Source: Strigamia acuminata (taxonomy: Eukaryota; Arthropoda; Chilopoda; Geophilomorpha; Linotaeniidae). From it: a stretch of DNA of 60,000 nucleotides. Numbering within the stretch: the stretch's first letter is position 1; each line of letters starts with the position of its first letter. Shown piece by piece: positions 3,499-60,000 of this stretch. A program made the translations under genes and the position numbers. The notes under the pieces are model-generated. The model searched no databases. It saw nothing but the letters and a program-made list of their open reading frames with translations, and was not told the origin of the DNA. The stretch lies in contig OX442314.1 of assembly GCA_949358305.1 (NCBI GenBank), positions 55,873,369-55,933,368 on the forward strand, in the 5' to 3' direction.

Positions 3499-3520
3499 CT
3501 TCGATCATCGATCGGGGCGA

Positions 3521-6988: not shown

Positions 6989-7390
6989 AAAGAAAAACTC
7001 AGATTGCTCAACTTGAAAGAAAGAGGTTTTTTCTACTTTCACGGTGAAAGAGAGAGAACGCGTGCTTTTGCCTTCAAGAAAACAAACGGAAGTGGAACCG
7101 ACCGGCGCAGAGGATTATGGGTCACGGACGCGTCTCGTACGGTACGAGACTTGTCCGTGCGAGCGTAGAGCTACGGGGACGACGTGTGTGATCGAGCCGT
7201 GCGCATGTTACGCTACGGGGTTTCGACCGATACGTCATGCAATCTCGCTTTTCGATATTGACGGTGATAACTGACGACGAAATTCGGACTTAGCCGAATT
7301 TTATGTCTCGACATGCGTTGCAGCTCTCGTAAGTGAATTTCTTCAACTTTACGACGCCGCAATCACATGTCTTGACCTTTTTATTTCTTT
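6989..7390. other. gypsy-1 spacer between pol and the third ORF
   Basis: About 400 bp between the pol stop and the candidate exon hold no convincing ORF on the element's strand. The spacer may carry a subgenomic promoter or splice signals; none is clearly recognisable. Confidence 0.4.
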
Positions 7391-11527: not shown

Positions 11528-11533
11528 TTTTTT
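11480..11533 (-). promoter_or_regulatory. -1 ribosomal frameshift site between gag and pol
   Basis: On the minus strand the heptamer A AAA AAC (11533-11527) lies in the gag frame as GCA AAA AAC, the classical X XXY YYZ arrangement. It is 28 nt upstream of the gag TAG (11499-11497) and inside the 85-nt gag/pol overlap, and the pol frame is -1 relative to gag. After a 7-nt spacer, CGCAG (11519-11515) can pair with CTGCG (11484-11480), and CGAAG (11507-11503) with CTTCG (11490-11486), giving a two-part stem. All elements of a programmed -1 shift are present. Confidence 0.85.
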
Positions 11534-14616: not shown

Positions 14617-14689
14617 TTCTTTGAGTGATTCTTCGATTTGGGTTATTATATTAAATGAGAGATCACAAGTTCAGTTGAGATTTATTTCT

Positions 14690-14709
14690 AAATCCCGGAC
14701 GGGCCCCTA
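14690..14709 (-). other. gypsy-1 primer-binding site, tRNA-Pro-like
   Basis: Two bases after the 5' LTR the minus strand reads TAGGGGCCCGTCCGGGATTT. It matches the complement of the 3' end of animal tRNA-Pro (TGGGGGCTCGTCCGGGATTT) at 18 of 20 positions, including a 12-nt run. The family comparison is from general knowledge of tRNA-Pro-primed elements such as gammaretroviruses. Confidence 0.7.
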
Positions 14710-14711
14710 CG

Positions 14712-15529
14712 TGTCGCGTCCTACCTGGTGATAGGTTTAATGAGCTAACGTGTATTACTTTACCTGTGATCCTACTAAATATGTAAATTACCCAAATGAA
14801 TACTAAGTATATGTAAATGAACAAACAGGTTTATTCAATAGGCGTAAGCCTTAAAATACACTCAGTATAAAACTAGAGTCGACTTGGTCAGAGTCGAACA
14901 AAGGATTTCTCAAGATGGCGTCGTCGGTTCCGCGTGGTCGGCGGAACAAAGGCGGCGTCTCGAGTTGTCGTAAATTCGTCACGGATTCGTCGTTCACGGA
15001 CGCGGTGGAATGCTCTTTCGAGTCTTCTATCCGTGCCTGTTGTCTAGGGGTTGGTTTTAGCGTCGCAAGGCTCCGTCCAGAAACGTGGAGTTTCTTACAG
15101 GGCACTCGGACACTTCGCAATGGAAATAATCGTGGGTCGATTATTCGGTGTGAATCCACAAGGGTTATTTTCCTGCTTTCGCGGGGAAATAACACGCAGT
15201 GTAAATTCGTGAGAGTTACAGTTGCACTGGAATCAGCGGTCCTCGATCAATCCTAACTTTTGGTGGAGTTGGCCTGACGGTGAGGTAGTTGCTGTGTTCT
15301 TGGTGTCGTTTGTGTAAGTTCTGCTTGTAGAGCGCGAAACTCTACCTGATATAGGCCAGGGTGAGGGGCCTGGCTCGGCCAATGGGGGCCGGCCACGCGT
15401 CACCTCACCCCCTCGGGGCACGCGCTTCCCAGGGGGGGAAGGCGGAGCCAACGCGAGGGAACTGACCTTTCCTAGTGACTCATGCGGATGGCGTCCACTG
15501 GAGGGACGACCACCCGCAGGGTCACCACA
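14712..15529 (-). repeat. gypsy-1 5' LTR
   Basis: Second copy of the 818-bp LTR, upstream of gag on the element's strand. It ends at 15529 and is followed by the ACTC target duplication (15530-15533). It carries the presumed promoter and transcription start of the element. Confidence 0.95.
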
Positions 15530-23464: not shown

Positions 23465-23504
23465 AGGTGTATTTGATACGAGAATTTACCTATAGAAAAT
23501 AATG

Positions 23505-24090
23505 TAGATAGTGAAAATGAGATAGCGAAAATGAGATAGCAAAAATGAGATAGCAAAAATGAGATAGCGAAAATGAGATAACGAAAACGAGATAGCGAAA
23601 ACGATATAGCAAAAACGAGATAGAGAAAACGAGATAGCGAAAATGAGATAGCGAAAATGAGATAGCGAAAATGAGATAGCGAAAATGAGATAGCAAAAAT
23701 GAGATAGCGAAAATGAGATAGCGAAAATGAGATAGCGAAAATGAGATAGCGAAAATGAGATAGCGAAAATGAGATAGCGAAAATGAGATAGCGAAAATGA
23801 GATAGCAAAAATGAGATAGCGAAAATGAGATAACGAAAATGAGATAGCGAAAATGAGATAGCGAAAATGAGATAGCGAAAACGAGATAGCGAAAACGAGA
23901 TAGCGAAAACGAGATAGCAAAAACGAGATAGCAAAAACGAGATCGCAAAAACGAGATAGCGAAGACGAGATAGCGAAGACGAGATAGTGAAGATGAGATA
24001 GTAAAGATGAGATAGTGAAGATGAGATAGTAAAAATGAGATAGTGAAGATGAGATAGTGAAAATGAGATAGTAAAAATGAGATAGTGAAA
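23505..24090. repeat. 14-bp minisatellite, about 42 units
   Basis: The unit GATAGCGAAAATGA repeats about 42 times with substitutions (AGC/AGT/AAC, GAAAA/CAAAA/GAAGA). Variants are grouped: GCGAAAAT in the left half, GCGAAAAC around 23880-23940 and GTGAAGAT/GTAAAAAT at the right end. All frames stay open on one strand because the unit lacks stops there; the resulting periodic LSHFRYLIF-type polypeptides are not genes. Confidence 0.95.
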
Positions 24091-24333
24091 ATGAGATTAG
24101 GCCTAATAAAACAACAATCGTTCTCTCAACTAATCCCTCTGCATTTGACGTTTGATGGAAAGGCCCCACCGGGGGGCGCCAGCACCAGAAACATTTAGCG
24201 GGAAGAGTGAAAAGAGTGCATGGCGCCAGGAATTTCTTCCCGGTAACGACCAATCAGACGTCAAAAGCGGTTTGTTACGCGCCTCGGGATTGGTCGGGAG
24301 AACGATTGTTGTTTTGTCAGGCCTAATCTCATT
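24090..24333. mobile_element. MITE with ~36-bp inverted ends
   Basis: AATGAGATTAGGCCTAATAA (24090) and its inverse, ending CAGGCCTAATCTCATT (24333), form ~36-bp arms that continue through ACAACAATCGTTCTC. The interior has further inverse words (GACGTTTGA / TCAGACGTC). There is no ORF. Its left end (ATGAGAT) reads smoothly into the minisatellite, which may have grown from the terminal repeat. Confidence 0.8.
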
Positions 24334-42767: not shown

Positions 42768-43678
42768 GGTTTACTCAAAGTCAGTCCGGATCGGTTGAAT
42801 GCAGCCAGCAGGCGATCGAGAATGTCCAGGTGAATGTCGTTTGTTGCGCCTGTGACCGCCGAGTCGTCTATGTAAGGTTGAGTTGCATCTATTTCTGTTG
42901 TCAAATCATCCATTGTGCGCTGGAACAGCGCTGGAGCCGTGGAAATACCATAGAAAAGTCTATTGACACGAAAAAGCCCAATGTGGGTGTTAATGGTGCA
43001 TAAATCTTTGCTGGCGTCGTCCAATTCGAGTTGATTGTACGAGTGGTTCATGTCGAGTGTGGAATAAGATTCCCCACCCGACAATTTGGCCGCCACGTCA
43101 GCGAACAGCGGCAATGGGTAGGAGCACGGGAGCACCGCCTTGTTGACAGTGCGGTTGTAGCACCCGGCTATCTTCATTGTGCTGTCCGACTTACGGACGT
43201 GCATGATGGGTGTAGCCCATTTGGAGGACGCCACAGGAGTAATTATGTCCAAAGCTTGCAACCGATGCAACTCCTTTTCGAGGTCAGGCTTGACGGACAG
43301 CGGAACTGGGTAGGCCTTGAGAAAAATCGGTTTGAAGTTTTTGTCAATGTCAATACTCACGGTGGTCGGCAGGTAGCGACCAATCTCGTCACGAAATACA
43401 TTTTCGTGTTTGTGCAGCAAAGTGTCCAATTTTGCCAATGTTTTGGGAGTTGCCGTGGAGGGCGGAGCAGCAGACGGCAGAGGAGCGGCAGATGTCACAG
43501 GAGCAGCGGCGGCAGCAGCAGCAGCAGCAGGGGCATCTGTCAGTCGGCGGCGGAACGAGAGGAGCAGCGACGGGCGGAGGTGTGGGCACAGCACCTGCAC
43601 TCGGCGTGAGGGCGTACACGACAGCACCAACCGCATCCTTAGTTTTCTCGATGAGGCCGAACACATCCAGCCAGTCGC
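42768..43678 (-). pseudogene. gypsy-2 reverse transcriptase (first part)
   Basis: The translation shows DWLDVFGLIEK (end of the protease region), an Ala/Cys-rich low-complexity linker, then RT blocks: KPIFLKAYPVPLSVK, VASSKWATPIMHV, YSTLDMNHSYNQLEL, FRVNRLFYGISTAPALFQRTMDDL and QPYIDDSAVTG with the YIDD active site. A (GCA/CAG)n stretch at about 43500-43535 encodes the linker. The frame ends at the TIR-element junction. Confidence 0.85.
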
Positions 43679-44135
43679 TGTCGGATAATAGGCAGGTGAG
43701 TGTATCCAAAATGAAGGCAGACAGCAGTATAAAACTTGCACTTGAAATCCATGCAAGTGGCCATTTTTATTCCAGGCATAATAAGTGAACATAAAATACA
43801 TACATTGAGGCTAACTGCACTCAATATCTATCAATAGGACAAATCAATGATTAACATCAGTTGATTTATCCTGTACAAAGTTAAAACAAAGATAACTAAT
43901 AACAGAACAAATTATATGAACAAAATGCTCATTTGAGCAGACGACAACTTGCTAAATCATTACACAAAGGGGAAACGGTTGTGGCAACGTAACACGCATT
44001 AATAAAAGTCAATATTAACCGATCCTCAACTCCGGGACATGATGTAACAATAAACAAGTTGCTTAACAGTCGCACTAATACGGAAACGTGCGATGTGAAC
44101 AATACAAGCACCATACGGTTGATCAAATCTCTACA
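43679..44135 (-). repeat. copia-1 3' LTR
   Basis: On the plus strand it runs TGTCGGATAATAGG...AAATCTCTACA, so the element strand has TGTAGAG...CCGACA ends. An AATAAA on the element strand lies at 43766-43771. It is preceded by the GTCGC duplication. Confidence 0.95.
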
Positions 44136-44147
44136 AATCCCCCTCTG
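44136..44147 (-). other. copia-1 polypurine tract
   Basis: CAGAGGGGGATT directly precedes the 3' LTR on the minus strand. Copia-3 has a comparable CAGAGGGGGTATATAG run in the same position. Confidence 0.75.
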
Positions 44148-44234
44148 ATCAATGTATGGTTATCTTGAAAAACAACAACTCCATATATTTGAATATTCTA
44201 CAACATCCCAAACGGAAAACAAATGCTAGTCTGG

Positions 44235-47200
44235 TCAGTATACAACAGGTGTACCTCTGATTGATTTATCTCTGATTATTCTCGAATTTTTAAGTTCAAT
44301 CAACCGCACAGTATAAACGGGATATGCTGGGTGTGTCGGATCCATGTTACGAAAATCGAATAGACTCGAATTAAAAACATAACCCTTTGCAACACACCAC
44401 TTCTCCACCTCATTTACATTCTGAATCCGGTCATTGTTCGGTGAAATATAGATAACACTGACCCATTCTTGGTAATCATCTATTTGGTGTGTTGTGGTTT
44501 GTCTCCTCCACTTACTCATGTCTAAGTTTTGTTTAAGTCTCACGTCCACATCATTTTCAGTTGTGAGACTTAAAAACTGCTCTATTTTAGTCATTTCAAT
44601 ATCCAATATCGGTTCATTAACCGTCAATTGATATTCATCGTCCTTTGTTTTCATTAAGTCAACATTCTTGATTTTCCTACACCTTTTCTTACGTCTTTTT
44701 GTCCTTTCACATTCCCCCTCTATCCCAGTAGATTTGTATTCATTCACACCTGTCAATGTCTCTATCGGTGTTGGGGATATGTCATCTTCCAGGGACATCA
44801 AAGAAAACTCACAGACTTCCATGGAATTGACCTGTCTAAACCCTTCATCAGATTTGGGCTCAAATTCCAATGTAAACTGTTCCAATTCTTCCCTTTCGTT
44901 TGTAATTGCCTCAGACTCCTCATGTGTTAACCCTGGAAGAATTTCTTTTGGCAAATTAGTTTTCTTATCACTAAATTTCCCTTCTTGTTTCAATCCTTCC
45001 AGTTCTACACTTTGCAAGTGTTCCTCCTCTTCTTTAATAGGTTTACACTCATCTATGTCAACTTCCCTATGTGTCGGCAATGCAATTTTATCAACCAAAC
45101 TAGTTGTTAGACTTGGGGGAATTTCTGATGACAAATTAATTTTCTCTTTACTGAAATTCTGCTCTTGTTCCAATGGGGAAATTTCATCTTCCACTGTGTT
45201 CACTAAGGAGGAAGACTCCTGTTCACAAGTGAGGCTTTCATAAAACTCTTCATCACTTCTTAAATGTTCCCCCTCGTTTTCAATACTTTCACACGTATTA
45301 ATGTCGACTTCTTCACTTAATTTCAACAAGTCTAATGTTGAGGGGACTTCCTGATGAGGGGATATTGGCACCCCAACCTTCGATGGAATTTCAGCTTCCA
45401 AACTCTCAATGCAATTCTCAATGTTGGAAATTTCCAGAGAGGGTTTTAATTCCCCCTCGTGCCAATAACTCCACTCATGTATTGTAACATTATTTGTCTG
45501 AAATACCCTATTTCTCTTCGGGTCCCAGACCCGGTATTTTCTTTGTGAATTAGAATATCCAACTAGAGCGCCCACCCAGGAATACTTTTCCCCATTTTTG
45601 ACATGAAAAACTTTCACTCTTGACCCGATACACCTAAGGTGTCGGACAGAAATGCATCTGTTATACAGCACATTGCATGGGGTTTTCCAATTTAAATTGA
45701 TCCTGGGGGCTCTATTCTTTAAATAGACCATTGTGTTGGCAAGTTCCAACCACAAATTATTGGGGAATTTATTCTCTACAATTAAACTTTCCACCCCGTT
45801 TATAATATCTGTATTAGCCCTCTCGGAGATGGAGTTAGTCATTGGGTTATCAGAACCTACACTTTCAATTGTAATCCCGAAATCTTCCATTAATTCTACC
45901 CAAGCTGTTGATTCCTCTATGGAAAAATCCATTCCAGGGCCCAAATAAACCTTATTCACACTTCCTGTCAAGCATTTAATTTCATTTAACCAATTTTGAA
46001 ATTCCACTAAAATGCTGTTTCTCTTTAATGGCCTAAGCCACACATATTCAGAACAATCATCTATTATAATGATATATTTTTCCCCTGTTGCATGTGGGGC
46101 CCTCCAAACACTCAAATGTACAGCTTCTAAAGCTTTCCTGTCATTATTCATTTGCATTGAGGGAATTTTAACTTTTGTATTTCCTATTGTCTTACAAGAG
46201 GTATGAGGAGTAGTGTCTGTGTTTGCTAATTGAACCCCATAAACATTACTAGACCTATTCATGTTAAGAACACTGTCTTTATCTAAATACCCTAAGCGGG
46301 TATGCCATAAATTAAATGGGAGGACCCTGTCCTTTGCTGTAAAGTCCATACAGTTTACCTGTTTTCTAACATTTCCCTTTCTAGAATTCTTTTTCTGGTT
46401 TTTAGTACCAGAATTCAAATGATCATTTTGATTAATTCCTATTGTCATATCTGATTTCTGACTACTTAAGCAATTCTTAGATTTCCCTGAAATCCCTTTT
46501 AGAAACTCACTTCTATTAATCACAATCATGCTATTCAATTCTCTAATTGGATCCCCCTCTTTGTTTTCATTCCAAACCCGGTTTGAATGTTCTGTTTTTG
46601 TAGGCCTGCATTTAATTCCTTTGTTTCTCTTATTACCATTAAGGGGGCTACCACTTTTAACTGTGGTTATACAATCCAATTTGTCATCCAATTTCCTGTT
46701 CTGTTCTAAAGAAGGGGGATTCTTTTTCTCGGTTTTTAGAAAAACCCTTTGTTCTTTCTGTCTACCAGAATCTAGAATGTTAATTTGATTAACCCCGTCC
46801 CCCTCGTTCTTTTTATTTCGAACCCGGTTCGAATATTCCAAATTACCAATTCTACATTGGTTATTTTCCTTGTTTTCCATGTTGGCATTCGAGATTTTTG
46901 AACAATTTTGTGTGATTTTCGAAACCCTGTTTGAATTAATCACCTTAAGACCCTGTCTACAATTGTCCGTGCTCTGCACTTCACTATCCCAATGCCCATT
47001 CATTTCATGCTTAAGCACACGCATTTCACAAATTGCTAAGATCAAATTAGCCATGCCCTTTATCACAGTGTCTATGTTATCTGTTAGTTCGCTCTTATGT
47101 ACTAAATGTGTTAATAACAATACAATTACATCCATATCCAAATCAGGATTCAATTTCAAATATTCTCTCTCTTTTCCAAGAACACTTGTTTCCTTTTCAA

Positions 47201-47429
47201 ATTGTTCATCAAGTGCGTTAAGCACTGTCTGTCTGTTAGAGACATTCTGGTCTTGTGTTTCCAGTTTCAATTGTGCCTTGTGTGTGTCGTCCATTGTTTG
47301 CTTGCAGGCATTCACTTTGTCTGTTACAGACGTTCTCCTTGCACAAAACACTGTGGGCACAAAACTCGCACCACACGACCACACCACACTCACTAATAAA
47401 TTTAGTAACGGAACAAAACACATTTTCAC
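44235..47429 (-). CDS. copia-1 ORF: protein with degenerate integrase, no RT
   Basis: The ORF is 1064 codons without a stop. The first ~30 residues are hydrophobic (FVPLLNLLVSVVWSCGA), like a signal peptide or anchor, followed by a Lys/Glu/Asn-rich region with two related SNRV(R/W)N..(K/E)EGD blocks. Around residue 370 is a copia pre-integrase motif (LPFNLWHTRLGYLDKDSVL). An integrase-like region follows (about 440-600). The first catalytic Asp is replaced (HLSVWRAP where HxDVxGP is usual), the second is replaced (YLGPGMDF where xSDNGGEF is usual), and the Glu remains (SISERAN). The post-integrase KVFHVKNGEKYSWVGALVGYS block is clear. The last ~400 residues are acidic with no RT. An intact frame with lost catalysis suggests a structural or DNA-binding role, or very recent copying. 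Confidence 0.85.
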   Translation of the reverse strand: MKMCFVPLLNLLVSVVWSCGASFVPTVFCARRTSVTDKVNACKQTMDDTHKAQLKLETQDQNVSNRQTVLNALDEQFEKETSVLGKEREYLKLNPDLDMDVIVLLLTHLVHKSELTDNIDTVIKGMANLILAICEMRVLKHEMNGHWDSEVQSTDNCRQGLKVINSNRVSKITQNCSKISNANMENKENNQCRIGNLEYSNRVRNKKNEGDGVNQINILDSGRQKEQRVFLKTEKKNPPSLEQNRKLDDKLDCITTVKSGSPLNGNKRNKGIKCRPTKTEHSNRVWNENKEGDPIRELNSMIVINRSEFLKGISGKSKNCLSSQKSDMTIGINQNDHLNSGTKNQKKNSRKGNVRKQVNCMDFTAKDRVLPFNLWHTRLGYLDKDSVLNMNRSSNVYGVQLANTDTTPHTSCKTIGNTKVKIPSMQMNNDRKALEAVHLSVWRAPHATGEKYIIIIDDCSEYVWLRPLKRNSILVEFQNWLNEIKCLTGSVNKVYLGPGMDFSIEESTAWVELMEDFGITIESVGSDNPMTNSISERANTDIINGVESLIVENKFPNNLWLELANTMVYLKNRAPRINLNWKTPCNVLYNRCISVRHLRCIGSRVKVFHVKNGEKYSWVGALVGYSNSQRKYRVWDPKRNRVFQTNNVTIHEWSYWHEGELKPSLEISNIENCIESLEAEIPSKVGVPISPHQEVPSTLDLLKLSEEVDINTCESIENEGEHLRSDEEFYESLTCEQESSSLVNTVEDEISPLEQEQNFSKEKINLSSEIPPSLTTSLVDKIALPTHREVDIDECKPIKEEEEHLQSVELEGLKQEGKFSDKKTNLPKEILPGLTHEESEAITNEREELEQFTLEFEPKSDEGFRQVNSMEVCEFSLMSLEDDISPTPIETLTGVNEYKSTGIEGECERTKRRKKRCRKIKNVDLMKTKDDEYQLTVNEPILDIEMTKIEQFLSLTTENDVDVRLKQNLDMSKWRRQTTTHQIDDYQEWVSVIYISPNNDRIQNVNEVEKWCVAKGYVFNSSLFDFRNMDPTHPAYPVYTVRLIELKNSRIIRDKSIRGTPVVY

Positions 47430-48986
47430 TTATTTGCAGCACTTTCACGAAAAAAAAACACTTTTCCACTTTGGAAACACAACAATGACACTAATTTTCC
47501 CCGCCAAAATTTAAGGAGAAAAATCACAAACTTCCCGGGGAAATCTCTTTAAGAGAGATTGATACTCGAATCTGGTCACCCTGATAGCTTCCGACCGCCA
47601 ACCTGGTGGCGCGGGACGACTACCTTGTACCGCGGGTAAGCCCAGACCGAAATAAGACTGCACTTGGGTGACTACCCGAAGGGTGCAGAATATGCTAAAT
47701 TACCCAAACAAAAACTTATAAACTATACAAAGTTTCACGACAACCCCGAAAATAAACAATAACACTTTGCTGGCAAGTTGTCTTCTTTGCGGGACTTTTG
47801 CGTCGCAAAATCCAACGTTGACGCCGTTAAAACGTCGATTCTAACGCTGAAATCCGTTGCTATTCACTTGTGCACCTGGCACAAGACTTAACCAGTCCCT
47901 TCGTTGCGCAGATACACTCTACGTGCAAATCCGCGATGCGTTTGCGCCCGTCGCACCAAACGCGTCCAAAAATCGAAATCGTCCCGAAATGTTCGCCAGA
48001 CGTTATCTGCAACTCCGTAAAACGTCTTCCCGACGTTATCCAACGTGGATTTAATCCAAAACGCAAGTTGACGACGATTTTCCGCGTTTTCACCGTCTTG
48101 GTATGGGCGGCGCCATTTTGTATTTGGCTGCTCCGCACATCTCGGCAAAAAAACAACATAAATTAATAACAAATCGACCAAATAAATGTTCCTACTGTCT
48201 CTAGGCAATCCTAATCGTGTTCCTACACGATACCACAGTCGAATCTACTCGAATCTCGATGATTTTCGACGCCGCTCGTTCGTAGCGTGTCTCGTCGCTC
48301 GAAAATCGCTGGAAAACCGGTCCAAACCGCTCGTTTATCGTGTCCCGGACACGAAATATTCCACTGTCCACCGAAATACGTTTCCTAAACGCTTTCCAAA
48401 TCGATGGGCACGTATTTACAACGTGCGTCGTGGCTCAAAACGATGCGAAATCGTCGCACTCGTTGCCGCCGAAAAATGCTCGTTCCCGGTCAAAAACGTC
48501 CTCAAATCCTTCCGATACCACTTCCAATCGATTCGCCGTGCCTTGTTGCACTAAAACGACGACAATTCCAGCCTTGCAGTCCGCTGAACGATCTGGAAAC
48601 TGGCTAAACTCGGCTGGTCTTGAAAAACACACTGGGCGCCGCCATTTTGAAAACGCACGTCATCGCCCTTTTCGCCTCGGCAAAAATGGTGTTATTTCCA
48701 CCCAAATAAATTCGAATATACTTCGCAATTGTTCCTGCTGCCTGTGCCAACAATCCCACGACGATTCCGTTCCGTTTTCCCGTCGAAAACCGCAAATTCG
48801 TCGCTCCTCGGTTCCCGCTAGCTTTCCTGCACCGCCGAGCACGCAAATATCGATTTGCCGTGCCTCGGATCGTCGCCCGAATGCCGCCTCTCGTATCGCC
48901 GATCTCCGGTCACTCGCGTCCGACGTTCTAGGCCAGAAAAATGCCAGGAATCCGAATTTTAACGTTGTAGGAACGTTAAACACTCA
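47430..48986 (-). other. copia-1 5' leader
   Basis: A ~1.56-kb stretch between the primer site and the ORF, much longer than usual. It has no long ORF on the element strand. A GTGAGT splice-donor consensus lies at about 48987-48982, just after the primer site, so an intron in the leader is possible. The region is rich in CGA/TCG words and GGCGGCGCCATTTTG-type motifs on the plus strand. Confidence 0.5.
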
Positions 48987-49007
48987 CCAAACCACCCTCT
49001 GCTACCA
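48987..49007 (-). other. copia-1 primer-binding site, initiator tRNA-Met
   Basis: One base after the 5' LTR the minus strand reads TGGTAGCAGAGG then GTGGTTT. It matches the complement of the 3' end of animal initiator tRNA-Met (TGGTAGCAGAGGATGGTTT) at 18 of 19 positions. Initiator tRNA-Met is the usual primer of Ty1/copia elements. Confidence 0.85.
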
Positions 49008-49008
49008 T

Positions 49009-49465
49009 TGTCGGATAATAGGCAGGTGAGTGTATCCAAAATGAAGGCAGACAGCAGTATAAAACTTGCACTTGAAATCCATGCAAGTGGCCATTTTTAT
49101 TCCAGGCATAATAAGTGAACATAAAATACATACATTGAGGCTAACTGCACTCAATATCTATCAATAGGACAAATCAATGATTAACATCAGTTGATTTATC
49201 CTGTACAAAGTTAAAACAAAGATAACTAATAACAGAACAAATTATATGAACAAAATGCTCATTTGAGCAGACGACAACTTGCTAAATCATTACACAAAGG
49301 GGAAACGGTTGTGGCAACGTAACACGCATTAATAAAAGTCAATATTAACCGATCCTCAACTCCGGGACATGATGTAACAATAAACAAGTTGCTTAACAGT
49401 CGCACTAATACGGAAACGTGCGATGTGAACAATACAAGCACCATACGGTTGATCAAATCTCTACA
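49009..49465 (-). repeat. copia-1 5' LTR
   Basis: The second 457-bp copy, indistinguishable by eye from 43679-44135, followed by the GTCGC duplication at 49466-49470. The ~65-residue frame seen in both LTRs is not a gene. Confidence 0.95.
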
Positions 49466-49828
49466 GTCGCAACCCAGCAATGAAACGGTGCCAGCGGTCG
49501 CCACACACAACGGCAAATGAAACGAACGATCGCCATACTGCACTGGAACGGTGCAGACGCCTTCCATCGGCAGCGCGTGGCCGTCGTACGACGACATTTC
49601 GATGTCTAACGGATCTAAAGGAAACTGACGAAAAAGCTGATTATAAAATTGTTTACTAATGAACTTTGCGCCAGCGCCTGTGTCCAACTCCATCCAGAGC
49701 TTGGTGGACCCGATGACGACTTCAATCATGAGCGGTTTGATGCGTTTGATTGCGACAGCATTCACAGTTCTATTTCGAGGCGGTTCCGACGGTTCGATCG
49801 AATAAAAGGGCAGCTGCTTTGGTTCCAC
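49466..49828 (-). pseudogene. gypsy-2 protease region
   Basis: The translation shows WMELDTGAGAKFIS, an aspartic protease active site (DTGA), and VSLLGCD, the LLG block, where copia-1 interrupts it. The DWLDVFG continuation is found at the other side of copia-1 (near 43670). The upstream part toward Gag is missing. Confidence 0.85.
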
Positions 49829-50813: not shown

Positions 50814-51872
50814 TTATTTTCCCACCAAAAATTTGTTACAAAAACCATTCAAAGTGACCCTATTAACCGACTTGGTAAACAGGTCTGCATAATTCCTTTT
50901 AGTATACACATGCAAAACTTGTAACTCTCCTTTTGCTACTAATTCCCGAATGAAATGAAACTTTATATCTACATGCTTCGTTCTGCGATTTTCAATTCTG
51001 GACCTCGTAAAGTCAATAGAAGCAGTGTTATCGCAATAGAGAACATGTTGATCGTCAAAATCATTATCAGGTAGAATCTCCTTCAGAACTCTAACCACCC
51101 ATATATGATCTTTAGAAGACTTTGCAAGAGCCACATACTCTGCCTCCATTGTAGAAAGCGTCACTCCACGCTGTTTGAAAGCACGCCAAAATACTAGAGC
51201 GTCTCCCAACATCACTATTGTACCACCCATGGAGATGCGATCATCCCTATTGTTGGCGTAGTCAGAATCACTGTATGTAGTAACAATGCTTGGGGAATGT
51301 GTAAATAGCCTTAGCTTCAAAGATCGAGTGTTCTTCAAATATCCCAATACATTCAGTAATACTTTCCAATGTTCTTCGCCTGGATTTGATTGAAATTGAC
51401 TTAAAACATTGATCGCGTATGAAATATCAGGACGTGTTCTTGAGGCTATGAATGCAAGAGAACCCAGTAAACTTCTAAATGGTATTGACTGCATTAATTG
51501 GCATTCCTCAAAATTCTGCGGTGAATCCTTTTTGGATAATATGACGTCCTTTGTTATAGGAAGAGTTCTTAATTTACAGTAAAATTGGTCGAACTTCTGT
51601 AGAACCTTGTCAATATACGACTGTTGATGTATGCACAACTTGTCCTTAACACAGAGAAATTCTACTCCTAATAACTTCTTAGTAGGTCCCATGATGACTA
51701 AATCGAATTTGGTCTTGATTAATGCAAGTACTCCATGTGCATCTTGTAAGGTTTTTCCAAAAACGACCAAATCATCTACATACACGATGAGGAAAACTGT
51801 GTTCTTGTACCGATAAACACAATTGCACCAACTCACACGGGTTAAACCCAATTGTTGTAGAAGCGTCAACAA
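50814..51872 (-). pseudogene. copia-2 RT (active-site half) and RNase H
   Basis: The frame shows CVYRYKNTVFLIVYVDDLVVF (RT active site), FRSLLGSLAFIASRTRPDI, TYSDSDYANNRDDRISMGG (RNase H), TLSTMEAEYVAL, and NRRTKHVDIKFHFIRE to the C-terminus. It joins the preceding RT piece after a deletion: the segment normally carrying the LYGLKQ-type motif (about 40 residues) is absent, and the frame changes near 51,850. Confidence 0.88.
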
Positions 51873-52095
51873 ATCCTTTGGGTTGCTTCATATAAACTGT
51901 CTTGTGTAATTTGGCATACAAATATGCACAACGTACATCTGCTTGGACATGTACCCACTTGAGTATGCCAACAAGAAGAATGAATAAGAATCGTATGATT
52001 GAGAAGTCGACGACTGGCGAAAATACTTCATCATATGATTCGCCATATTCCTGGTTGAAGCCTTGCGCGACCAACCTCGCTCTGTATCGCGCAAC
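51772..52095 (-). pseudogene. copia-2 RT N-terminal part
   Basis: It shows LVAQGFNQEYGESYDEVFSP, QADVRCAYLYAKLHKTVYMKQ and PKGFVDA, the first RT blocks. It is in the same frame as the upstream ORF but separated from it by an in-frame TAA (52098-52096). The DV.CAYLYA block retains the catalytic Asp. Confidence 0.85.
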
Positions 52096-55050
52096 TTATC
52101 CTGTCTCAGCATTCTTCTTTGCTGTATATATCCAGCGACATCCTAAAATTTCTGTATCTGGAGGTTTTTCAACCAATTCCCACACACCTCGTTCCTTCAT
52201 AATCCCAATTTCGTGATCCATTGCATCGTACCATTCTTTGCGTTGCAATGATGATTCCACTTCTTCAAATTTGTTTGGAACTAAAATTTCAATGTGGTTA
52301 ATTTCCAGATCATCTTGTAAATCATCCTCTTCTGGTGTTGCCGCTTTTTCTTCTTCTAATAATTCTTTCCCAAAATATATATTGTGATCTTGACAGTACC
52401 TAATCACTTCTGGGATAGACCTAAGTTTGGGTTTGTTCTTTCCTTTAATCCTGTATTCGTAATCATTTTGCTTTCTTCCTGGTCTCGGTGTTGACTTCCA
52501 AATCCATACAGTCTTATCATCCTTGGGATCTTGTTGTTTTTCTGCTTCTGGAAGAACTTGAGCCGGAATAGCTGCACGAGCTACAGGAGGGAAAGGTGGT
52601 GGCGGTGGTGGTTCGAAAATTTTAGGTACAACCGCTTGTTTTTTTGTAGGAATATCCTCATCTTCATAATCTGTAAAATCGCTGATTGCAATTGTTTTGG
52701 GTTTAGGGCCCAGTATTGCTTCCACCCCAATAGTGTCTTCAATAAATTTAGCATTACTAGTCTCAACTATCTTCTTGAGTTCTGGTACCCAAATCCTGTA
52801 TCCCTTGGTGACACGTGAATATCCTAACATAATCCCACGGTGTGATTTGTTGTCCAATTTGCTTCTTTTTGGTACACCGACATATGTAAGACATCCAAAT
52901 ATTCTTAAATGTTGCAATGATGGTTTCCGTCCATAATACTTTTTCATCGGCGTTTTATTCCATTTGAGTTTAATGACGCGATTACGGAGATAATTGAAGG
53001 TGAGTAGAGCTTCAGCCCAAAATCTGTGGCTCAAATGTGCGTCTTCAATCATGGCACGTGCACCGTCCATTAATGTTTGGTTTATTCGTTCTGCGACGCC
53101 ATTTTGTTGAGGCGTATAGACATTAGTCCTCTCGTGTTTAATGCCTAAGTTGTCCAAATAATTGGTAAATTCTCTCGAACAAAATTCGAGTCCATTGTCT
53201 GACCGAATGGCCATGACTTTCCGTTCTAGAAGTCGTTCAATCCTCACAATATACTTCTGTACGAATCCAAAAACTTCTGATTTGAACTTCATCGGATAAA
53301 CAGTAGTGTATCTCGAAAAATCATCTGTTATCGTCAGAAAATATCTGCATCCTGCTAACGATTCCACTGGTTGTGGACCGCAGACGTCCATATGCAGTAG
53401 TTCAAGAACATTAGTTGATCGAGGACCGGGCATAGCCTTGTGAGAAATCCCTCGCCGCTTTGCTGCATCACATGCATCGCATTGTTCCAATTTGGCTTTA
53501 AAATCCGGTAGGCCATTAACAATCTTGTGTTTGCTCATGTCCTTGATGCAATCAAAATTAATGTGTCCTAATCTACGATGCCAAAGGGTTTCCTGATTCC
53601 CTTCCACATGTTGTATGATTGGAGAAGTGTCCTCTGGTTTCTGCTCATCATCCAAAATCTTGTGTTTCAGATTGACAAAATAAAGGCTTCCATCTCTAGT
53701 TGCTTGCAAAATGAGTTTGGATTTGTCAGGATTGACAATTTTCAAGACTCCATTAGAAATTAACGCATGGCAACCAGCCTCATCAAATTTGCCAGCAGAA
53801 ATCATATTTCTTCTCAACTTAGGCGAATAATAGGTATTCTTGAGTTTAACTCTTGTGCTTCCAGTTCCGACATCACACCAGATAACAACATCGCCGACCC
53901 CTTTCGTTTTGATGACTGATGTTTGATCCGCTTGTTTAATTTCGCCTCCTTGAAGTGGCCGAAAGTTTGTAAACAAATTGCGATCCTTACAAAAGTGCAT
54001 TGTGGCCCCGCTGTCGTAAATCCATGTTGTGGTGCCTTTTTCACATTGTAGAACCTCATACGTGGTGATTTCAGTCAAAAATCCAAAACCAACTTCTACA
54101 AAATCTGAATAAACTGCTTCTTTTTCCTGTTGTTGAAGCTGCTGGGTTGGCAATGCTGCCCTGCAATCCCTGGCCCAATGTCCCTCCTTATGACAACGAT
54201 GACACGGCCCCCTTCTCGATGAACCCGTGGTTGATTGCTTAGAATTAGGACGATTGTTACTGTTCTTATTGTTAGATGCAGTAGATTGTTGATGTCCGCT
54301 AGTGTTTGGTTTTTCTGACATCACTTCTTTCCGTTGTTGTGCACTCGGTTTCTTATTATAGTTTTTAAAACGATTCTGTTGATAGCTTGCTGTCAATGCT
54401 CCAGAAATGACTTCCAAACCAGAATCACGTTTTTGCTGTAAAAGCCTGCCTTCTTCTGCCAAAAGTTCCTCTTCCACTTTATCTAATGTGAATTTCACAT
54501 CCTCCCAACGATAAATTGCTTGAACTGCAGATTGATATTCCTGTGGAAGATAACGGATTAGTTGGAAAGCTTGGTATAAATCTGGTAATGTATGTTTAAT
54601 ATCCTTCAATTTCTTTGCTGCATTTCTGATTTTAGCTGCAAACACTCCTAAAGATTCTACACTGGAATCGAATTTCAAATTAAAGAAAGTGTCCAGCAAT
54701 TGAATAATGCGTGCCCTGGAAACCGGTTTGAAATTGTCCTTTAAAATTTTCCATGCTTTTTGTGCATCCTCGGTAGAACTAAGTAGTGCCTGGTATTGTT
54801 CTTCAATGCCATAAAAAATCGTGCTAAATGCGCGTCCTTTTCTCATTGTATAGTCTGATTTTTCCTTCCATGTTGCTGCCGGTTCAATGGCTGGTTCAGT
54901 GCCTTCTGTAAAACCCCAACAACCATGATGCATTAATAGAACCTTCATCTGTTTTTGCCAGGTGTCATAATTGTGCCTGTTGAGTAGAGTTAATTTGCCT
55001 TCCAATTTTGACAAATCCATTGTCACGTGTTTCATTAAATGTAAATACAC
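52096..55050 (-). CDS. copia-2 Gag-PR-INT polyprotein (RT cut off by a stop)
   Basis: The 984-codon frame, with a likely start at the ATG at 55020 (MDLSKLEGKL), holds a Gag (copia UBN2-type region, about 15-230), a CCHC knuckle (CHRCHKEGHWARDC, about 280), a protease with IYDSGATMHFC (about 345), the pre-integrase LWHRRLGHINFDCI (about 490), an integrase with all three catalytic residues (LLHMDVCGP, IRSDNGLEF, NGVAERINQT), and the post-integrase LDNKSHRGIMLGYS block. It ends at a TAA shortly after the WIYTAKKN start of RT. Upstream and downstream domains remain in frame across that stop, which points to a point mutation in an otherwise near-complete copy. Confidence 0.9.
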   Translation of the reverse strand: MYLHLMKHVTMDLSKLEGKLTLLNRHNYDTWQKQMKVLLMHHGCWGFTEGTEPAIEPAATWKEKSDYTMRKGRAFSTIFYGIEEQYQALLSSTEDAQKAWKILKDNFKPVSRARIIQLLDTFFNLKFDSSVESLGVFAAKIRNAAKKLKDIKHTLPDLYQAFQLIRYLPQEYQSAVQAIYRWEDVKFTLDKVEEELLAEEGRLLQQKRDSGLEVISGALTASYQQNRFKNYNKKPSAQQRKEVMSEKPNTSGHQQSTASNNKNSNNRPNSKQSTTGSSRRGPCHRCHKEGHWARDCRAALPTQQLQQQEKEAVYSDFVEVGFGFLTEITTYEVLQCEKGTTTWIYDSGATMHFCKDRNLFTNFRPLQGGEIKQADQTSVIKTKGVGDVVIWCDVGTGSTRVKLKNTYYSPKLRRNMISAGKFDEAGCHALISNGVLKIVNPDKSKLILQATRDGSLYFVNLKHKILDDEQKPEDTSPIIQHVEGNQETLWHRRLGHINFDCIKDMSKHKIVNGLPDFKAKLEQCDACDAAKRRGISHKAMPGPRSTNVLELLHMDVCGPQPVESLAGCRYFLTITDDFSRYTTVYPMKFKSEVFGFVQKYIVRIERLLERKVMAIRSDNGLEFCSREFTNYLDNLGIKHERTNVYTPQQNGVAERINQTLMDGARAMIEDAHLSHRFWAEALLTFNYLRNRVIKLKWNKTPMKKYYGRKPSLQHLRIFGCLTYVGVPKRSKLDNKSHRGIMLGYSRVTKGYRIWVPELKKIVETSNAKFIEDTIGVEAILGPKPKTIAISDFTDYEDEDIPTKKQAVVPKIFEPPPPPPFPPVARAAIPAQVLPEAEKQQDPKDDKTVWIWKSTPRPGRKQNDYEYRIKGKNKPKLRSIPEVIRYCQDHNIYFGKELLEEEKAATPEEDDLQDDLEINHIEILVPNKFEEVESSLQRKEWYDAMDHEIGIMKERGVWELVEKPPDTEILGCRWIYTAKKNAETG

Positions 55051-55611
55051 TAAAATGCACTAATTAACTGAAAACTGCACAAAAATGCCCCCAAAATTAT
55101 AAATCCTATCACAATACTAAGCTAAGTGTAAAGATAATCTATATCTAGTACAACACTAAGCTAAAAGTAAATAATATTCAAATTCAAAATAAATTTGCAG
55201 AAAATTCCACAAAATAATTCAATAATAAATCTGTTATTTTCCAGATTTATATACCAGTTCATTTGCACTTATTTTCACTCAATTTACGCTGTTCTTGATT
55301 TTTATACACTTCCCGGCCGCTGCTCACACTTCGCGTGTGGTCGATGGGAAATGGTGTCGTCGTACCGCACTCGATGGCTCGCGTCCCGCCGAACGATATC
55401 GCGATTTCCGTACTTTCCGTCGCCTAGTTTTCGATTATCGACGCTACCGCACGATGACGAAAATTGTTCGCCCTGGATTCCTTGGCACTCGATGCAGCGA
55501 TTCAGTGTCCGTTTTCCGCCGAAATGTATCGCGTTTGGGGCGAAATGTATTGCTCTTTGCAATACAGCAAAAACACCCGAAAAAGACCAAATAAAATAGG
55601 AGTGGCGCTAC
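55051..55611. other. Region 5' of copia-2, no second LTR found
   Basis: On copia-2's strand this should hold the primer site and 5' LTR, but no sequence matching the 3' LTR start (TGTTAAGATG) or a TGG-type primer site was seen. Bases 55300-55560 are richer in CG, in the style of the copia-1 leader. No gene. Confidence 0.4.
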
Positions 55612-55765: not shown

Positions 55766-55937
55766 CTGTGCATGGAATTCCCATCGAGGAACGGATGAGT
55801 GCGCGCCCGCGACCGATCGGCATGCCCTTCCCGCATTAGTTCCCGCACCACCGGCGCTTCGATGGACCCGTTCCGACGTACATCGAGGCGTACTCCTGCT
55901 GCCCGGACCGCTTCTTGCCCATCGATCTGTTGGCCTA

Positions 55938-56353
55938 TGGATCTTAAATCAGGTGAGTTCAAGCAGTTTTCAATGTTTTGCAACACTAGCACAAATTGTG
56001 CCGCCATCTTTAATATCATGGAAAACATGTGAGAACAAATGATACATGGTTTGAGGTTATTTCACCTCACAAACTATAAGAAGGACAAATCACTATTGTA
56101 TTCAATTTGATTTGTCCTGTACAATGTTTAAACATAAACAACTTAAAACAGAACAAGTTCTTAATACAAAATGCTCATAAGAGCAGACGACAATTAGACA
56201 AATCATTATATAAAGGTAAATCAGTTGTGGTAACGAAACACGCATTAGATAAAAAGCAATAACAACTGATCTGCAATTCCGGGACATAATACAATGATAA
56301 ACTAATCGCGTGACAATCGTGCTAATCCGGAAACGCACGAAGTAATCTCTACA
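55938..56353 (-). repeat. copia-3 3' LTR, related to the copia-1 LTR
   Basis: It aligns in order with the copia-1 LTR: CAGGTGAG near the left, GTCCTGTACAA, AATGCTCAT.AGAGCAGACGA, AAATCATTA, AACG.AACACGCATTA, CCGGGACAT.AT and TCTCTACA at the right end (56353). There are many differences, so the two families are related but separate. The left boundary (about 55938) is approximate. Confidence 0.75.
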
Positions 56354-56418
56354 CTATAAAGTCAAGACTGTGACAACATTTGTCCCTAAACTCTATATAC
56401 CCCCTCTGGACAACTGTG

Positions 56419-56557
56419 TCACATGTCAAAGATGTGTCCACACAATTCAGTCAAACGTGGTCGGGCTAACCACTTGGTTAATAAATCGGCCACGTTCAGT
56501 CTTCCAGAAACGTGCCGGATGTCGAAGACCTTGCTTTGAAATGCAATAAGGTATTGC
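56419..56557 (-). pseudogene. copia-3 RNase H C-terminus
   Basis: The minus-strand frame reads SKVFDIRHVSGRLNVADLLT followed by KWLARPRL and ends in a TGA at 56419-56421. This is the typical C-terminal end of copia Pol. It lies directly before a polypurine run and the copia-3 LTR, so the fragment is the 3' end of a copia element that did encode RT/RNase H. Homology stops near 56557. Confidence 0.75.
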
Positions 56558-57096
56558 GGATAAAATAATTAAATCCCTGAATAACAATGCTTATTTCAAA
56601 TTGAAATGTAATTTTTGTGAGAAATAAAGAAGCCTGACTTTTCTACTCAAAAACTTCCTCAAGACTGGTTTTATTCTTTCTTTCAAACAACGGCAATTAA
56701 ATATACAAAAAGGAAATGACTAATATTTCTGTGCTACAAGTAAAGCACACAGAGAAAAGATGACGCGCTCCAAAAGGGGAGCACAAGATAATTAGTTACA
56801 CATTTAAAAGTAGGTGAATTCTTGGAATGGAAAAGATAAGTGGTTTAAGGTGAAAAAACAACTATTTTTAACTAAACAAATATAATTTCCAAAGGGTTCA
56901 AATAAAACACAATAAAATAATAGTTTGTCAAAATCAAACTAACATCACATCAATTCAAATCATTAATGAGCAATCAAAATCAGCAATATATTAAAATTCT
57001 CACATTATTATAAAAACAATCAAAATCCAATAATCAACATGAAAAACAAATAAACAGTGGCAATAATAATCAAAACGCGTAAAAACGTGTCGGTTT
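56558..57096 (-). other. 3' region of the BEL/Pao element, probable LTR
   Basis: AT-rich sequence between the BEL/Pao pol stop and the truncated copia-3. The 3' LTR of the BEL/Pao element is expected here, and an AATAAA-type signal on the minus strand lies near 56,665. Without the partner LTR (outside the window) its limits cannot be set. Confidence 0.4.
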
Positions 57097-60000
57097 TCAC
57101 ACTGCCGGCGGCACAGGACCGGGGTGAATCTCCATTTTTATCAAACGTTGAATAGGTCGCCTAAATTTATTACCATTAGGCATTAAAAGTTCGCATGAAC
57201 GTGCCACACCATCCTTACTGGGGTGTATGCTGACGACGCGTGCCATTTTCCAATTGATTCTAGATTTTAGTAAATCTTCCACCAACACTACATCTCCCAT
57301 TTGCAGTTGACAAGTATTTGGTTTTCCCACTTGTCTCTTTAAGTCGACCAAATACTCACGAGACCATCGTCGCCAAAAGTCCATCAAGATGCTTTGACGT
57401 CTCTTCCATTGGTGGATAAATGACTGCTGAGTCGGTTCGTCCGAGGCAGCGTCTTCAGCAGATGGCAAACTTGTTAGGTTAGTCCCCGTCAAAAAATGGG
57501 CCGGTGTGAGCGCTTCGGGTTCGTTTGGCGCGTCATAGATGTAAGTGATAGGTCTTTTGTTGATGATAGCTTCTACCTGAGTGAGTAAAGTTTCCAATTG
57601 AAAGAAGTTGAGAGAGGCTGATCCTATCGTTTTTTTTAAACAAGATTTGACAGTTTGAATCATCCTCTCCCAAAATCCCCCCCACCAAGGAGCATTCTCA
57701 ACAATAAATTTCCACTCAATTCCCTTTTGAGTTAGGAAATTACGCACGGAGTCGTCTTTCGTATTTCGCAGCAGAGCGTTCAGTTCACGGTTTGTACGAT
57801 GGAACGTCGTCCCGTTGTCACTGTAGATGGTCCTAGGCATCCCTCGTCGGCTGATGAAGCGTTCTAGCACGCCTACGAAGTCTGAAGTGGTCAGTGACGG
57901 GATCAGTTCTAGGTGCACTGCTCGAATATTGGCGCAGGTGAAGAGAGCGATGTATGCCTTCGTCTTCCTTCCTCGTACGATGATTGGGCCTGCAAAATCG
58001 ACTCCGGTAATGGCGAATGGACTGCACTGTGACACTCGATCAAAAGGTAGTTGTCCGGGCACTTCTCTCATCAATCGTCCATTTATTCTCTTGCAAGTCA
58101 CACACTTATTTAGGATCGTTTTCAAGGTTCTCCTCGCGGCTGGCGTCCAGTAATTCTGACGGAAGTATGCCAGGGTGGCTGTCAAACCGCAATGGAAAAC
58201 CTGAGAATGTGAAAACGATAAAATTAATTTGGTGAGTGCGTGATCGGACGGGAGAAGCACGGGGGAGTTTGCAGTGATGGCGTCTTTGGAGTTCCTGAGT
58301 CGAGTGTCCAATTTGAGCACGCCAGAAACGTCTAGATAAACGCTTAAGTTTTGCAGTTTCGAGTCGGTCAACGGCCTTTCGTTTTGTAGTCGTGTCATCT
58401 CGATCCCGTAACATTCTCTTTGTGCAGCTCGGATCAGCGTCGTCTCGGCCTGTTTGAGTTCGACGACAGTCAATGGTCCTCGAATCTTATTTGAGACGTC
58501 GACAGTTCGTGTATTGGCGGCGAATCTCAGCATCCAAGCCGTGACCCGTCGTAATCGACTGAACGAGCTAAATTTGGAGAAAATAAATTCAGTATTAATG
58601 ACTTGGAGGGATTCGATGTGAGTTTCGATGTCGTCCTCGTCCGACTCGTCTGCAATTTCCACATTCGAATTCGGCCAATCGTCACGAGGGCCTCGCATCC
58701 AATCTGGTCCGTTCCACCACAGCTGGTCGGTCATCAATTCGTCGACCATCAGGCCGCGTGTCAAGCGGTCAGCAGGATTGTCGATGCCCGGTACGTGACG
58801 CCAATTGTCGATTTTTGACTTTTCTCGGATCTCCAGCACTCTGTTCTGTATAAATGTTGGCGGCCTTTTAGCTGTGTTGCGGATCCAATGTATGCATATT
58901 TGGGAGTCGGTCCAGTAATGGATTTCACGGCATCTTGTCACCTCTTTAATTTGGTCGGCCATGCGGACTGCCACCAAAGCTCCCATTAGTTCCAATTTTG
59001 GCAATGTTAATGGCTTGACTGGTGCCACCCTACATTTAGAAAAAATAAAAAAGGAATTGATTAAATCTTCCGTGGTGTCTTGAATGTAGGCGACAGCACC
59101 GTACGCCTTGGGGCTTGCGTCGGAAAAAATATGGATCTCGCAATTCATTTCATTTTTCACTCCCAGCCATCTTGGAATTTGGAATTCACTCAATTTTGGA
59201 ATTTGTTCTGCCCATTTAAGCCAGTTGAGTCTAAGAACATCATCCAATTTTTCATCCCATTCCAATTTTCTCAGCCAAAGTGATTGGAAAAAGATTCTTG
59301 CAGTGACGGTGAATGGCGTGACGAATCCGAGTGGGTCAAATATCTGGGCGGAGATTTGGACTACTTCTCTTTTCGTCACTGTTGTGCTGTCCACGCTCGA
59401 TATATTTTCGATTTGTAGACTCAGTTTGTCTGAAGTTGGATCCCATTTCAATCCCAGCACTTTGGATTCTTCATTTGATGTCACCTTTGCATCTGCAGGA
59501 TCTTCTTTTCTGAATATTTCGCGTAGTTCAGGAGAATTAGTCTGCCATTTTACCAGTTGCATGCCGGCTGATGAGAGCATTTCGCGAGCTTGTTCGAATG
59601 TCCTCACTGCCTGGTCAATGTCGTCCACCGACGTGATCAAATCGTCCACGTATAAAAATCGACAAAGTAATTCGTATGTGGCGGGATATTTGTCTTGGTA
59701 GATCTTGATGTGGCGTTTGATGGTCGCATTTAAAAGGAAAGGGCTGGGCGCTGCGCCGAAGAGAACGCGTGTTTGGCGTAGTACTCGAATTTTGGCTCGT
59801 CCCGTTCCGTCCCAGTCTGCGCAAACCCACAGAAAACGTGTTACGTCTCGATCCTTTACTTCAATTTCGATCATGTGGAACGCCTTGCGAATATCCGACG
59901 TCTCAGCGATTTTTCGGAGTCTAAATTTCATCAATACAACGATTAGGGACGGCAAAAAGTTTATACCTTTGGACAGGCAATCGTTTAGCGATAGCTGCCC
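57097..60000 (-). CDS. pol: BEL/Pao Pol polyprotein (partial, continues off the right edge)
   Basis: The frame is open from the window edge to the stop at 57097 (about 967 codons visible). Domains in order: Pao-type RT with SLNDCLSKG at the edge, ETSDIRKAFHMIEI, LFGAAPSPFLLNAT and LCRFLYVDDLI (YVDD active site, near 59,650); RNase H with HIFSDASPKAYGAVAYI and YWTDSQICIHWI; the zinc region with KCVTCKRINGRL; an integrase core with ITGVDFAGPI, TIYSDNGTTF and WWGGFWERMIQ, retaining all catalytic residues; and a C-terminal domain (MGDVVLVEDLLKSRINWKMA) of the type found after BEL/Pao integrases. Gag, protease and the 5' LTR lie outside. No stop or frameshift is seen, so this copy may be recent. 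Confidence 0.95.
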   Translation of the reverse strand, partial: GQLSLNDCLSKGINFLPSLIVVLMKFRLRKIAETSDIRKAFHMIEIEVKDRDVTRFLWVCADWDGTGRAKIRVLRQTRVLFGAAPSPFLLNATIKRHIKIYQDKYPATYELLCRFLYVDDLITSVDDIDQAVRTFEQAREMLSSAGMQLVKWQTNSPELREIFRKEDPADAKVTSNEESKVLGLKWDPTSDKLSLQIENISSVDSTTVTKREVVQISAQIFDPLGFVTPFTVTARIFFQSLWLRKLEWDEKLDDVLRLNWLKWAEQIPKLSEFQIPRWLGVKNEMNCEIHIFSDASPKAYGAVAYIQDTTEDLINSFFIFSKCRVAPVKPLTLPKLELMGALVAVRMADQIKEVTRCREIHYWTDSQICIHWIRNTAKRPPTFIQNRVLEIREKSKIDNWRHVPGIDNPADRLTRGLMVDELMTDQLWWNGPDWMRGPRDDWPNSNVEIADESDEDDIETHIESLQVINTEFIFSKFSSFSRLRRVTAWMLRFAANTRTVDVSNKIRGPLTVVELKQAETTLIRAAQRECYGIEMTRLQNERPLTDSKLQNLSVYLDVSGVLKLDTRLRNSKDAITANSPVLLPSDHALTKLILSFSHSQVFHCGLTATLAYFRQNYWTPAARRTLKTILNKCVTCKRINGRLMREVPGQLPFDRVSQCSPFAITGVDFAGPIIVRGRKTKAYIALFTCANIRAVHLELIPSLTTSDFVGVLERFISRRGMPRTIYSDNGTTFHRTNRELNALLRNTKDDSVRNFLTQKGIEWKFIVENAPWWGGFWERMIQTVKSCLKKTIGSASLNFFQLETLLTQVEAIINKRPITYIYDAPNEPEALTPAHFLTGTNLTSLPSAEDAASDEPTQQSFIHQWKRRQSILMDFWRRWSREYLVDLKRQVGKPNTCQLQMGDVVLVEDLLKSRINWKMARVVSIHPSKDGVARSCELLMPNGNKFRRPIQRLIKMEIHPGPVPPAV

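Follow-up and report, generated by a model that had tools for sequence, protein, structure and literature searches.

What keeps a 1064-codon open reading frame (ORF) intact in a retrotransposon whose integrase has lost its active site? The question is raised by a copia-class long terminal repeat (LTR) element located in a 60,000-nucleotide stretch of the Strigamia acuminata genome (contig OX442314.1, positions 55,873,369 to 55,933,368; this whole stretch is referred to as the window). The element is a member of a family whose ORFs form one clade of integrase derivatives without an active site (dead integrases), with purifying selection, common cis signals and recent movement. The explanation that we favour, and to which we give an even chance, is that of a satellite copia that would be mobilised by an autonomous helper, a copia with a methyl-CpG-binding domain (MBD-copia), and that encodes a selected, non-enzymatic homologue of integrase.

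The features of a Ty1/copia element are all found at this locus: an LTR pair, a short target-site duplication, a tRNA primer site, a polypurine tract and a copia-type integrase (Table 1). An earlier note on this DNA, made from the sequence alone, had described a complete copia-class element, and every part of that description was borne out: the two 457-bp LTRs show zero differences, and GTCGC is found at both ends. The primer binding site, TGGTAGCAGAGGGTGG, is presumably of the initiator tRNA-Met type. TGGTAGCAGAG occurs three times in the window at no more than one mismatch versus 0.42 expected, and its sole exact occurrence is the primer site of the element. As the note had also claimed, the ORF is without protease, reverse transcriptase (RT) and RNase H, none of which was found by Pfam, and tblastn with 20 copia RTs as queries detected no RT in the element. 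Since gag, protease, RT and RNase H were not found in the element, it is a non-autonomous derivative and not a full copia element. Rfam families and tRNAs were likewise absent from the window. A donor-like GTGAGT motif just downstream of the primer site (window 48970-48995, minus strand) recurs in the helper and in the leaders of L012, L031, L034 and L036, and is absent from L032 (L-numbers are loci of the 237.5-Mb source genome found by search with the ORF protein, leader, LTR or MBD). The motif hints at possible splicing of the long leader; no clear 3' splice acceptor was seen ahead of the ORF on inspection by eye.

When the ORF protein was compared with Pfam, SH3_retrovirus scored over the cut-off (residues 590-656, E 3.2e-10), gag_pre-integrase matched weakly (E 0.11), and nothing else was found at E ≤ 1, neither gag nor MBD. 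The protein alone had no match in the PDB at E ≤ 10, and residues 360-780, searched against 5.8 billion proteins, gave 3272 candidates and none at E ≤ 0.001. In the PDB, the mixed alignment A1 matched best to 7z0h ('Integrase', E 1.3e-34), which we take to be the Ty1 integrase. Ser440 and Gly497 align to the first and second catalytic Asp of active copia integrases, so the two replacements reported in the note stand. The RNase H-like fold of the integrase core nevertheless appears to be kept, judging from a structure model whose alignment included 18 autonomous integrases as well as the dead ones. An hhalign comparison of residues 1-365 with the helper gag and with the first 260 residues of its pol piece, made to reveal a hidden gag or protease, gave probabilities of 1% at most.

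The genome search with the ORF protein returned at least 119 matching stretches, with scores for only 43 of its 2949 first-look candidates; the counts given here are therefore lower bounds. TTAGG arrays in this genome (18,704 matches, compared with 10 for the reversed pattern) indicate an arthropod. Frames of 776-1198 amino acids (aa) were kept at 27 of the 33 loci assessed (long-frame criterion, ≥740 aa), and the remaining six have stops or shorter frames (L004, L012, L014, L016, L029 and L030). At a 95% identity cut the long ORFs fall into 18 kinds. Some copies are near-identical (L001-L003; L005-L011), and the dead lineages with surviving frames differ by 24-40% in the integrase region. Across 37 places with an integrase core the first catalytic position is always Ser, the second is Gly in 35 and Ser in two (L017, L059), and the third is Glu in 33 and Lys in four (L019, L025, L033, L063). 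Asp was found at the first or second position in none of them; the D letters in the L033 and L059 rows stem from adjacent autonomous copias. In this count L031, L032, L034 and L035 repeat other places, L057 and L062 are without the core, and many of the 37 places are near-copies. The HHCC zinc motif is broken in all 17 dead rows aligned, with Tyr for the second His and no CxxC. RT matches occurred in only two of the 43 pieces, both outside the dead element: in L035 ahead of its LTR on the opposite strand, and in L059 in an adjoining copia with its own integrase. A one-off deletion derivative is ruled out by the family of long frames and the absence of Asp from all 37 places. The genome-wide copies that the note had suggested seeking thus exist and keep its Ser in all 37 places and its Gly in 35, and neither an intact DDE triad among the 37 places nor an RT in frame in the 43 pieces was met with.

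LTR identity reaches 99.8-100% in five of seven elements inspected (identical in the window, L031, L034 and L036; 99.8% in L032), from which we conclude that the family has moved recently. Duplications of 5 bp, read by eye, flank the same elements, in L032 if its LTR ends four bases before the repeat end. Within 9 kb L033 showed no own LTR pair; in L035 a shared 1.73-kb block (99.9%) looks like a tandem arrangement. Dead ORFs or their remnants were present in six of the seven regions opened after the leader search, and L062 held only a 19-residue trace. A 264-aa frame upstream in L005 had no Pfam match at E ≤ 0.001. A separate tandem array of four dead-integrase elements was observed at C7:351506-371287, with a spacing of about 5.69 kb and one TAG in each main stretch. 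Also observed was a hydrophobic stretch at the ORF start (MCFVPLLNLLVSVVWSCGA; window 47367-47423, minus strand), signal-like and odd for a relative of integrase, with its initial Met retained in 22 of 27 ORFs.

The note had argued that so long an open frame suggests that the protein is used, and the selection analysis supports this. Among 153 pairs of the 18 kinds (NG86 method) dN/dS has a median of 0.46 and a range of 0.36-0.93, and is below 1 in every pair. Six independent sister pairs with no branch in common, taken from the integrase tree described below (17 dead, 18 autonomous), have whole-ORF values of 0.43-0.51, each with P ≤ 6.5e-6; out-of-frame controls on the same columns gave 0.77 and 0.87. 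In these pairs the pre-integrase region, core and SH3 domain together range from 0.23 to 0.42 (pooled 0.29), and the remainder is at 0.59 pooled. By segment, calculated for all kinds except L027 (17 of 18), residues 571-665 with the SH3 domain are lowest at 0.185, followed by the pre-integrase region at 0.27 and the core at 0.36. Purifying selection therefore acts on the dead-integrase ORFs, and a constraint that tracks domain borders is as expected of a protein in use. Some rows of the family alignment are mosaic (L017 and L022 agree and then diverge), so recombination may distort the dN/dS of single pairs.

The closest autonomous relative found is an MBD-copia of which one copy reaches into the right part of the window (55928-60000, minus strand), possibly complete but split by a Pao element at 57097-60000. 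One copy of this family was read as two pieces, a gag piece with a CCHC knuckle and the primer site TGGTAGCAGAGGATTACG, and a pol piece (L064) that is open over 1283 aa to both edges and includes the D, D, E residues, HHCC, SH3, MBD and RVT_2. The dead ORF matches the helper integrase with a best domain score of 200.6 bits, and the next of 21 other autonomous copias reaches 90.4. The latter score belongs to the copia at 50814-55059 of the window, which was rejected as helper; no primer site follows the LTR at 55928-56399, which is therefore not the 5' LTR of that copia. In a tree with 18 of the 22 autonomous integrases (L039, L044, L052 and L054 left out), the 17 dead integrases form one clade (100/100) that joins the helper family (100/99).

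Cis signals are also in common. A 253-bp stretch of the dead element's LTR matches window 56082-56335 at 77%, within the 3' LTR of the helper copy, and for the window's subfamily satellite and helper LTRs agree at 73% over 311 bp. The first 12 primer-site bases, TGGTAGCAGAGG, are the same in both, with divergence further on. The polypurine tract CAGAGGGGGTA of the window's helper copy is also found in L034, L035 and L036. The LTR termini read TGTAGAG...CCGACA or ...CCAACA in satellites and (TA)TGTAAAG...CCAACA in the helper. The same primer-site core and a strongly conserved part of the LTR, here for the window's subfamily, are among the marks by which an autonomous/non-autonomous pair is recognised (PMC11302176). 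A genome search with the LTR gave 40 scored matches, of which 35 stood at ≥87% and five at 75%; three of these five fall inside helper matches, and the other two are not among the 40 (of 162 first-look candidates) scored in the helper-family search. The helper family is spread in the genome, with four elements (C11, C13, C35, C63) whose two ends are both 100% matches. One further 100% match of the helper LTR was noted at C1:55941145-55941562, past the window end, where the 5' LTR of the possibly interrupted copy would be expected. Given these cis signals, the kinship and the recent activity, mobilisation of the satellite in trans by an MBD-copia helper would be the natural reading.

The MBD itself (PF01429, Pfam cut-off 21 bits) was examined in both partners. 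In the helper pol piece it lies between integrase and RT and scores 19.7 bits in the whole frame, below the cut-off, and 24.6 bits as a segment alone. Two further copias with a DDE integrase and RT, L065 (C8:783500-786600) and L066 (C4:2570600-2573500), have an MBD of 41.7 bits between the integrase SH3 domain and RT. Thus all three autonomous relatives read exceed the cut-off, L064 only as an isolated segment, and in a tree built by a quick method all three group with the dead clade on one side of a branch (SH-aLRT 100). In the genome MBD search all 150 scored of 1092 first-look candidates exceeded the cut-off, some of which may be host genes; about five in six, by eye, lie in open frames of more than 1200 aa, and many have frame lengths like those of L065 and L066. 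An hhalign comparison pairs the C-terminal end of the dead ORF with the helper MBD segment (96%). Scanned alone, five of five dead segments have MBD as their best Pfam match at 15.5-20.2 bits, below the cut-off, and a profile of six dead segments matches MBD1 in the PDB (E 8.5e-4). With top structural rows that are all MBD/TAM domains, at modest scores, an MBD-like fold appears in the model to be kept in some dead ORFs.

These data bear on the possibility that the protein is a targeting factor, its SH3 domain, basic cluster and C-terminal module binding chromatin and steering insertion in the manner of chromodomains or CR domains on other integrases. Precedent exists in the CR domain of RLG_Cereba (PMC11302176, as far as its accessible part goes). 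In favour of such a role, the basic cluster is found in 25 of the 27 long ORFs (the exceptions, L019 and L063, have different or shorter frames), the MBD-like end occurs in six of the 18 ORF kinds, and the MBD is found in the autonomous relatives. Against it, ten kinds have a ...WDEN..Y.. tail and two (L019, L063) neither ending. Moreover, Arg occupies both methyl-CpG positions in three of three autonomous sequences and in none of the six dead ones. These arginine fingers, which we take to be R22 and R44 of MBD1 in both numbering and role, are lost in the dead protein, and this speaks against methyl-CpG targeting of its own. We consider the targeting role unlikely, if still worth keeping in view. 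Two alternative C-terminal cassettes downstream of a common basic cluster are thus found within one dead family.

Under the explanation that we favour, an autonomous MBD-copia would provide gag, protease, RT and active integrase in trans, and the satellite would be recruited through the common LTR, primer-site and polypurine-tract signals. The former integrase would have lost its active site in the ancestor of the family and thereafter have been retained by selection as a non-enzymatic protein. We think it most likely that the dead protein would enter the helper particle or pre-integration complex and serve there as a structural, integrase-like subunit that binds nucleic acid, using its core and SH3 surfaces in folds that are predicted to be preserved, and would raise the satellite share among the helper's products. 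We favour such a subunit because, according to the available portion of PMC7551943, HIV-1 integrase acts as a multimer, so that proteins inactivated in different ways can complement each other, and it binds viral RNA through a site in its C-terminal domain and is required for RNA placement in the core; non-catalytic roles of integrase are thus known in HIV-1. We infer expression of the ORF, mobilisation in trans and the place of the protein in the helper complex. Active site, zinc motif and methyl-CpG contacts are all gone from the dead protein, yet its core and SH3 folds appear in models to be kept. More tentatively, and with somewhat less than an even chance, it may be a stolen integrase, a selected pseudoenzyme in the replication or integration complex of the MBD-copia that is doubly dead, with neither catalysis nor methyl-CpG reading, and that biases the complex toward satellite copies as the weapon of a molecular parasite.

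Several observations weigh against this explanation. Satellite and helper have LTR ends that resemble each other without being identical, and in other dead subfamilies the LTRs show a poor match to this helper (L032 61% over 241 bases, L036 76% over 85) or no detectable one (L034). A long stem (1.48 changes per site) leads to the dead clade, and the tree program gave a warning of long branches meeting. The 18 autonomous integrases in the model alignment may help the dead fold look intact. Segments outside the folded domains are weakly constrained (dN/dS 0.43-0.72), and the close pair L026/L027, at 0.93, alone would not show selection. Because of the weak or undetectable LTR matches, other subfamilies may use different MBD-copias.

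Loss of the active site with constraint on the core and SH3 domain could also be expected of a dominant-negative competitor, in which the dead protein mixes with the helper integrase and limits helper transposition, much as the gag-derived p22 restrains Ty1, the moderated activity favouring the persistence of both. A pure inhibitor would, however, hurt the satellite's sole source of enzymes, and the family is diverse and recently active, so we regard this as improbable. Slightly more doubtful is a packaging adaptor that binds its own leader RNA and carries it into helper particles with cis preference, the catalytic fold being a mere scaffold. The 1.56-kb leader is kept across the family, the SH3 segment is the most constrained, and HIV-1 integrase sets the example of RNA binding cited above; against this, residues 1-365 match neither the helper gag nor the start of its pol piece. 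That the ORF is an unused relic, open merely owing to the youth of its copies as the near-identical sets and the six broken loci might suggest, is very improbable, given frames that persist in lineages as different as noted above and dN/dS well below 1 with constraint concentrated on folded domains.

Table 1. Features of the satellite element and of the helper copy (positions in the window)
Feature	Position	Strand	Basis or remark
Whole element	43679-49465	-	complete LTR element, single long ORF
Target-site duplication GTCGC, left copy	43674..43678	.	sequence reading
3' LTR, 457 bp	43679..44135	-	identical to 49009-49465
Polypurine tract CAGAGGGGGATT	44136..44147	-	sequence reading
Single long ORF, 1064 codons; first ATG is codon 3, base 47423	44235..47429	-	derivative of copia integrase without active site
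MBD-like domain (putative), residues 974-1026	44352..44510	-	profile and model matches; both arginine fingers lost
Basic, NLS-like cluster KRRKKRCRK, residues 911-919	44673..44699	-	sequence reading
SH3-like integrase domain, residues 590-656	45462..45662	-	PF25597, E 3.2e-10; inside most constrained segment
Integrase core, residues 436-570	45720..46124	-	pooled dN/dS 0.36; fold model and structural matches
Glu536, third catalytic position	45822..45824	-	alignment to active copia integrases
Gly497, second catalytic Asp position	45939..45941	-	alignment to active copia integrases
Ser440, first catalytic Asp position	46110..46112	-	alignment to active copia integrases
Pre-integrase region, residues 366-400, HHCC broken	46230..46334	-	pooled dN/dS 0.27
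Leader, about 1.56 kb, without long frame	47430..48991	-	kept among family members
Primer binding site TGGTAGCAGAGGGTGG	48992..49007	-	one base off LTR
5' LTR, 457 bp	49009..49465	-	identical to 43679-44135
Target-site duplication GTCGC, right copy	49466..49470	.	sequence reading
3' end of likely-helper copy: RNase H frame end, polypurine tract CAGAGGGGGTA, 472-bp 3' LTR	55928..56560	-	frame and LTR reading

Apart from these elements, the window contains a gypsy-type element (2667-15529, minus strand) with identical 818-bp LTRs and gag and pol frames. Pfam gave no significant match for its third frame (974 aa, 3521-6445; best E 0.36), in which no strongly hydrophobic stretch was seen. A block of short direct repeats at 23492-24097 has overlapping minus-strand open frames of 211-255 aa.

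A retained integrase without an active site separates, in nature, the structural and nucleic-acid roles of integrase from its chemistry, and the case offers a testable parasitism of element against element by a pseudoenzyme. MBD-copia helpers, three of which were opened and many more of which are likely, would be a counterpart of integrases with a chromodomain and could link insertion with DNA methylation. Neither kept dead-integrase elements nor an MBD behind a copia integrase was found in a literature search of titles and the beginnings of abstracts, with few subscription journals, which is weak evidence.

Among known systems, the TR-GAG elements of plants are non-autonomous LTR elements whose sole kept ORF is gag. 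They resemble the present family in having one retained ORF and differ in its nature, a gag ORF not having been recognised here. The structure 7z0h shares the copia-type core and the region following it, but belongs to an active enzyme of a full element. Semi-autonomous GAG elements, as described in the accessible parts of the sources, are also without RT and integrase and still contribute a protein; theirs is GAG plus protease, whereas no gag family was found here at E ≤ 1. The nearest published satellites likewise contribute GAG (PMC11302176, PMC9744471, within the portions available). One of them is the wheat pair RLG_Cereba/RLG_Quinta, which, according to the accessible part of PMC11302176, is defined by a common primer site, common LTR termini and a common portion of the LTR; the pair proposed here has the primer-site core and a portion of the LTR in common, with termini that are similar. 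RLG_Cereba, like the helper here, has an integrase with an extra chromatin-linked module (CR), and the non-autonomous RLG_Quinta, like our satellite, retains an ORF. RLG_Quinta is nonetheless a gypsy element that keeps GAG and is without integrase, whereas a dead integrase is kept here and gag was not found. Finally, p22 of Ty1, in the available part of PMC4599808, derives from the gag of an autonomous element and not from the integrase of a separate satellite family; like the protein proposed here, it acts in trans as a non-enzymatic fragment derived from an element's own protein.

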